From Rhodocyclaceae bacterium (GTDB lineage Bacteria > Pseudomonadota > Gammaproteobacteria > Burkholderiales > Rhodocyclaceae), in NCBI GenBank assembly GCA_025353195.1, contig JANXRC010000002.1:1-50977 (forward strand): a DNA stretch of 50,977 nucleotides, read 5' to 3'. The first letter of the stretch is position 1. Every line of letters starts with the position of its first letter. The notes beneath the pieces were generated by a model that saw only the letters and a list, made by a program, of their open reading frames with translations, did not search any database and was not told the origin of the DNA. This document shows, piece by piece, positions 318 to 1,529 of the stretch. The position numbers and the translations under genes are program-made.

Positions 318-1514
318 TTATCGGCTCGTCGCCTGACGCAACCTCGCCAGCGCTGCTTCGAGCAGCGCACGCCGCGTGCCGAAGTTGAGGCGGACGAAAC
401 CCGGCGCGCCGAAATCCGCGCCGTCGGAAAGTCCCAGGCCGTGTTGCTCGAAGTAGCGCGATGGATTGTCGATGCCATGCTCCGCGGCAAACTGCCGGGC
501 ATCGATCCACGCCAGATAGGTCGCCTCCACCGGTCGCATGTCGAGGCCCGGCGCGGCGGCGACCGCGCGCTCGACGGCGCGCAGATTGCCGCGCAGATAG
601 TCGAGCAGCGCCGCCTGCCAGTCATCGCATGAGGTGAGCGCCGCTTCGGTCGCCACCATGCCCAGGGCATTGACGTGGGGCACGATGCCGTGCATGGCGT
701 CGCGGAAACGCTGCCGCAGGCGGCTATCGGGAATGATGGCAAAGGCGCAGCCCAGCCCGGGAATGTTGAAGGTCTTCGACGGCGCCAACAGAGTGATGCT
801 GCGCGCCGCAATTTCCGGGCTGAGCGTGGCCAGCAGTCGGTGCCGGCGGGACGGCGACAGGACCAGGCCGTTGTGGATCTCATCCGAACACACCACCATG
901 TCGTGCTTTTCGGCCAGCAGCGCGATCTGCCACAGTTCGTCCTCGTTCCATACGCGCCCGGTCGGATTGTGCGGATGGCAGAGCAGGAGGAGTTTCGCCC
1001 GGCTGGTCCTGAGTACCGCATCCACCGTGGGGAAATCCCACAACCAGCCGGCGGAGTCGCACACCAGCGGAGCACTCGCCACGCGCCGGCCGGAAAACGC
1101 CGGCGCCGAAAGAAACGGCGGATAGATCGGCGTCGCGGTAAAAACAGCATCGCCCGCGTCGCCGACGGCACGGCAGGCGACATTGAGGCCGGACACTAGG
1201 CCCGGCAGCCAGACGATCCACTCGGGGTCGATGCTCCACTCGAACTTGCGAGCGAGGTAGCCGACCACTGCGTCGATCTGGCCCGCAGTGGGCTGGTTGT
1301 AGCCGAACACGCCATGCTCGATGCGCCGGCGCAAGGCCGTCAGCACGGCCGGCGGCGCGGCAAAATCCATGTCGGCGACCCACAGCGGAATTATGTCCCT
1401 GTCCCCCAGGACGGGGACGGTATCCCGGGACATGTCACCGTCGCCGGCATACCTGGCCCACTTCACCGAATCGGTGTGGGCCCGCTCGATGACGGCGTCA
1501 AAGTCAAAGCTCAT
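318..1514 (-). CDS. patB: PatB/MalY-like PLP-dependent C-S lyase (aminotransferase class I/II fold)
   Basis: ORF 318..1529, likely start MSFDF at 1514; IPLWVADMDFAAPPAV, CHPHNPTGRVW and LLAPSKTFNIPGLG motifs. Confidence 0.85.
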   Translation of the reverse strand: MSFDFDAVIERAHTDSVKWARYAGDGDMSRDTVPVLGDRDIIPLWVADMDFAAPPAVLTALRRRIEHGVFGYNQPTAGQIDAVVGYLARKFEWSIDPEWIVWLPGLVSGLNVACRAVGDAGDAVFTATPIYPPFLSAPAFSGRRVASAPLVCDSAGWLWDFPTVDAVLRTSRAKLLLLCHPHNPTGRVWNEDELWQIALLAEKHDMVVCSDEIHNGLVLSPSRRHRLLATLSPEIAARSITLLAPSKTFNIPGLGCAFAIIPDSRLRQRFRDAMHGIVPHVNALGMVATEAALTSCDDWQAALLDYLRGNLRAVERAVAAAPGLDMRPVEATYLAWIDARQFAAEHGIDNPSRYFEQHGLGLSDGADFGAPGFVRLNFGTRRALLEAALARLRQATSR

Positions 1515-1529
1515 GTGCGAGCCCCACAT

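Follow-up and report, generated by a model that had tools for sequence, protein, structure and literature searches.

Intragenic REPs and Rickettsia palindromic elements (RPEs) are already known (PMC3733652, PMC10969869), and RPEs are palindromes found in protein genes (Ogata et al. 2000, 2002, cited in PMC10969869; PMC3733652). The palindromic element described here, from a lyase gene of a Rhodocyclaceae bacterium, resembles RPEs in that short palindromic repeats sit within unrelated protein genes, keeping the reading frame, and also occur between genes, and in that no mobilising enzyme has been assigned in either system. It differs in its length (39-44 bp, against the roughly 150 bp quoted for RPEs in PMC10969869) and in its host, a betaproteobacterial genus with another lifestyle. 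Unlike RPEs, it also has conserved feet with a covarying variable stem and apparently repeated insertion at one site. The likeness concerns the way of working.

GTAG REPs and REPINs with their RAYT (PMC2817692, PMC3116915, PMC3733652) are likewise small dispersed hairpins near gene ends and are sometimes intragenic, but our element has the foot GGATACC and the tail ATAA with no unpaired GTAG or variant, and no RAYT with flanking element copies was found in the genus. CGTC REPs, including RPE-4/6 and the dRS3 of Neisseria, also have no dedicated transposase, and intragenic copies are known in Rickettsia (PMC3733652). They carry an unpaired CGTC tag, an 8-9 bp stem starting with AT pairs and the tail CCA (PMC3733652), whereas the GTC of the element's CCGTCC pairs with GAC in the stem, so that no unpaired tag is present, and its stems vary widely in sequence and length without starting AT pairs. 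MITEs, with TIRs and target duplication, are also non-autonomous, short and palindromic, but filled and empty cysN sites of our element show at most 1 bp duplicated. Given that the element has neither the GTAG nor the CGTC tag and no RAYT partner, we classed it as similar to RPEs and REPs in its way of working. Two Xanthomonas species have been reported to carry REPs at nearly the same site of recB (PMC3733652).

Insert in a C-S lyase gene

The window, meaning the whole 50,977-nt stretch of DNA that was analysed, contains a lyase gene whose frame is open for 403 aa, palindromic segment included. The features of this locus are:

318..1529, minus strand: ORF of a PLP-dependent C-S lyase (PatB/MalY/OvoB-like), 403 aa, likely start ATG at 1514 (MSFDFD)
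1392..1430, minus strand: palindromic element TCCCGGGATACC-GTCCCCGTCCTGGGGGACAGGGAC-ATA, 39 nt, in frame, encoding SRDTVPVLGDRDI
1401..1442, minus strand: 42 nt or 14 residues (DGDMSRDTVPVLGD) extra relative to homologs reading YAG-RDIIPLW, overlapping the element
1395..1418, minus strand: hairpin GTCCCCGTCC-TGGG-GGACAGGGAC, 10-bp stem with one mismatch and a 4-nt loop, the stem covarying across the family
1419..1425, minus strand: 5' foot GGATACC, conserved in the palindrome family
1394..1432, no strand assigned: outer inverted repeat TGTCCC/GGGACA

A sequence-only reading of this DNA had proposed that a mobile palindrome adds about 14 residues just before IPLWVADMDF. The nested inverted repeats on which it relied are exact (TGTCCC 1394-1399 with GGGACA 1427-1432, and GTCCCC 1401-1406 with GGGGAC 1413-1418), and comparison with 80 relatives, solved structures and genus orthologs confirmed 13-14 residues added between KW.KYAG and (RD)IIPLWVADMDF. 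Nearly all of the 80 relatives have a short segment, K-W-x-K-Y-A-G-R-D-[IV]-[IL]-P-[LM]-W-V-A-D-M-D-F, the genus orthologs read are also short, and the window lyase reads YAG-DGDMSRDTVPVLGD-RDIIPLW at the same place. In a phmmer alignment with PDB 5z0q, a gap of exactly 14 residues opens at the insert. Only one of the 80 relatives and genus orthologs read (L033, the same gene as L144, from genome G004) has an insert related to that of the window; the segment is thus missing from most orthologs, and close homologs do not all carry it. The limits 1392..1430 were set by the tandem unit TCCC...GACATA of other copies and by the filled L144 against its empty neighbour L145, the element-free comparison for the lyase. 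Since the native GRDII codons resemble the 3' end of the element (its ATAA end is like the RDII codons, GGGACATAAT in some orthologs), the exact right boundary is ambiguous.

The closest solved structure is OvoB (PDB 5z0q, 45% identity, TM 0.91-0.96), with PatB and MalY next. The lyase is at least as near to OvoB-type C-S lyases as to PatB. The AlphaFold2 model (27-sequence alignment) has a mean pLDDT of 92, and its fold agrees with OvoB/PatB. The sole segment with pLDDT below 50, model residues 26-36, is the insert, which is predicted to form a disordered loop on an otherwise intact lyase fold. The low pLDDT of the insert and the matching fold suggest that it is most likely a tolerated loop, and from the conserved frame and predicted fold we infer that the insert is translated and the enzyme functions normally.

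Palindrome family of the genus

In the 3.4-Mb genome, the core GGATACCGTCC occurs exactly 36 times, where its length alone would predict about 2 occurrences. BLAST with a 66-bp query against the same genome gave 33 matches including the query itself, the best non-self match being 80% over 50 nt (E 1e-7). Reading the copies side by side gave the family consensus [TCCC-RCMRG]GGGATACC-GTCC-variable hairpin-GGAC-ATAA, about 39-44 bp, and tandem arrays of the element define the unit TCCC...GACATA. The foot GGATACC is invariant in two aligned length classes, although a fixed GGATACCGTC core was required when the copies were gathered, which partly accounts for the invariance of that core. In the two ungapped length classes, the paired fraction of stem cells is 92.7% and 85.2%, and double-change cells number 34 and 17, where shuffles give 10 and 6; sliding the register makes the pairing collapse. 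By its sequence, the lyase insert is one copy of this dispersed palindrome with many copies and a covarying hairpin. The single window copy folds modestly better than shuffles (z -1.8); the evidence lies in covariation and in belonging to the family, not in this one hairpin. The two outcomes named beforehand as speaking against a mobile palindrome, a segment universal among homologs and a lack of other genomic copies, did not occur.

Further searches showed that the element pattern matches 31/31 sampled congener genomes, with 1-34 copies each and 0 for a reversed-pattern control; outside the genus, it was present in only 6 of the other sampled family genomes, with 2-4 copies each. The sampled genus was judged Sulfuritalea-like from named relatives, and most genomes used are draft MAGs. 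On the basis of reading frames and flanks, most copies seem to be intergenic, and many sit just ahead of a terminator-like hairpin. No Rfam covariance-model match was obtained up to E 0.1 in ten copy-bearing loci. The genus-wide family appears undescribed, no account having been found in a literature mostly outside subscription journals. At two loci (L030 around 1504 and L027 around 1519), the element hairpin is seemingly interrupted by another G+C-rich repeat (GGGAATTCCGC...), which suggests nested repeat insertion.

In-frame copies in other genes and a possible landing site

A total of 139 copies were screened by codon position, and comparison with orthologs or structures followed. Codon-position G+C alone was rejected for counting genic copies, as it gave many spurious frames, and unit length modulo 3 over all copies was dropped, the left end being variable. 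A case was retained only after a check against orthologs, solved structures or recognisable protein families. In cysN, exactly 42 nt are extra in G004, G019 and G023, the empty site is directly abutting in G000, G001, G003, G018 and G022, and G010 resembles the empty site with two extra codons; an alignment with 1zun shows a gap at the same place. Ortholog comparison also revealed in-frame copies in dsbD and priA of G004. The ROK kinase of L194 has a copy in frame, with about 29 extra residues relative to 7p7i, and a membrane-fusion-type protein (L280) ends in element sequence. In hisZ (L182), whose protein was read by eye only, the frame is open through the copy and the PDB match ends before it, so this is probably a further in-frame case.

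Genic copies are in frame on either strand of unrelated genes. Each element length counted by hand (39, 42 and 30 nt) is divisible by three, as the removal of frame-breaking copies would predict. An in-frame palindrome with an empty site in orthologs, the Rickettsia-type situation, is found in the lyase, cysN, dsbD and priA, and together with the many other copies this bears out the likeness to Rickettsia palindromic elements drawn in the sequence-only reading.

Five copies (cysN, dsbD, priA, L280, L194) are flanked by CAGCGCCG^ACTT(C/T)T or close variants, and this flank belongs to a second repeat; the lyase insertion site is not a copy of it. Tentatively, and with somewhat less than even confidence, we propose that separate lineages have repeatedly received a RAYT-less palindrome in the same genes, precisely at identical nucleotide positions. 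The second motif, CGCCGTNNCRCCAGCGCCGACTT, inside which such insertions often lie, would serve as its landing site, both genic and intergenic.

The second motif is itself very abundant, genus-wide and 24-26 bp long. Its exact 12-mer core CAGCGCCGACTT has 115 copies in the genome of the window, against 3 for a reversed control, and 12 to 397 per genome in 31/31 congeners; 400 kb of G001 contain 68 matches at up to 3 mismatches. The motif at times occurs in inverted pairs (L352, L248), and it could be an uptake or binding motif. Its cores with one mismatch in the window are:

16637, plus strand
28000, plus strand
39206, plus strand
21752, minus strand
9086, minus strand

In G004, a longer repeat CCTGCCCGCG-AGCGGAATCCCAGGTACGCAGAGCG...CAGCGCCGACTT (L259, L263, L282, L266 near 1000) offers two fixed positions, of which one or both hold the palindromic element.

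Alternative explanations and proposed mechanism

The lyase loop varies in length in the genus and in Moraxellaceae relatives, as an ordinary hypervariable loop resembling a palindrome by chance would, but such a coincidence is scarcely credible given the near full-length match to a multi-copy family of the same genome, all conserved positions included; copy number and match refute it. A single origin of the insert in L144 and the window, natural at first sight, was rejected by the gene tree, in which insert-free sisters stand between the lyase carriers G000 and G004 (one clade, p-AU 2.9e-5). In the cysN gene tree, filled G023 groups with empty G018, and one carrier clade is rejected as well (p-AU 3.1e-7). 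Each lyase insert agrees with other genomic copies at 32/36 positions, and the two agree with each other at only 27/36. With carriers that are not sisters and inserts nearer to other copies than to each other, repeated insertion is likely, and the trees and sequences indicate that the lyase and cysN sites were probably both hit more than once. One old insertion in the ancestor of a 12-genome clade, which in-frame deletions then trimmed or removed in most descendants, would suit the naturally variable loop of this clade, many members of which exceed the basic YAGRDIIPLW (YAGRAAPDEV, YADAGNPGRV, YVDARGHNTDI), and in dsbD, L336 (G019) has the look of a partial deletion of this kind. We nevertheless regard an older insertion with several losses as unlikely: the sisters of both carriers have no insert, the tree rejects one carrier clade, neither stem nor loop is the same in the two inserts, and cysN repeats the pattern of the lyase.

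The covarying stems, the many copies directly preceding a terminator-like hairpin and the recurrence of copies with similar flanks between species would also fit a transcribed structured RNA or terminator-side element under selection, such as an RNA/DNA-protein binding site, that drifted into genes and is not a selfish repeat. This is possible, though on balance we doubt it, as mobility better accounts for tandem arrays, for presence/absence polymorphism and for in-frame copies on either strand of unrelated genes, and the ten loci gave no Rfam match; the two ideas are not exclusive. Improbable, in our view, is a classical REP or REPIN whose mover is a resident RAYT (Y1 HUH transposase), although the hairpin and its conserved single-stranded feet, the tandem arrays, the lack of a clear target duplication and Y1_Tnp matches in 26/31 genomes might suggest one. 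With a near-strict pattern and flanks of about 1.5 kb, no element copy was found at the Y1_Tnp loci inspected in the genus, namely the genome's own two RAYTs and 29 further loci. G026 (99% complete) has 28 copies and zero Y1_Tnp matches, G003 and G005 have 27 and 20 copies and likewise zero, and the GTAG tag is absent. Other inverted repeats (GGGGTCAGAGTCATT; GGGGACAGACCACGGTTTTC), which do not resemble the element, border the two Y1_Tnp genes of the window's own genome:

L031, 1060-1910: Y1_Tnp gene
L032, 1110-1930: Y1_Tnp gene

Since no copy lies near the Y1_Tnp loci inspected and G026 has its copies without any Y1_Tnp match, the element is probably not being moved today by a resident RAYT. 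The REP-RAYT link made from the sequence thus failed, the CGTC tag being absent as well, and the genome search proposed with it returned the other copies (36 exact cores) but no element beside the own Y1_Tnp genes.

The explanation we favour, with a probability of roughly 0.86, is that a genus-specific dispersed palindromic element has inserted in frame in the lyase loop and is translated as a tolerated disordered loop. The element would land in the flexible C-S lyase loop that links the SVKW..YAG segment to IPLWVADMDF, and as the copy is 39 nt long, the reading frame would continue; with one frame stop-free (RDTVP..GDI), 13 foreign residues would be translated as a disordered surface loop and tolerated. 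The process of movement would be TSD-less and site-preferring, with a mover other than a flanking RAYT, which is disfavoured. What stands of the earlier idea of an exapted mobile palindrome is a dispersed element that is tolerated and kept in frame, which by itself falls short of exaptation.

The element adds a betaproteobacterial case to the few known of small repeats turned into protein sequence. Sites that are filled in some close species and empty in others, together with apparent independent hits at one codon position, make both the movement of a RAYT-less palindrome and the tolerance of proteins to inserts testable.
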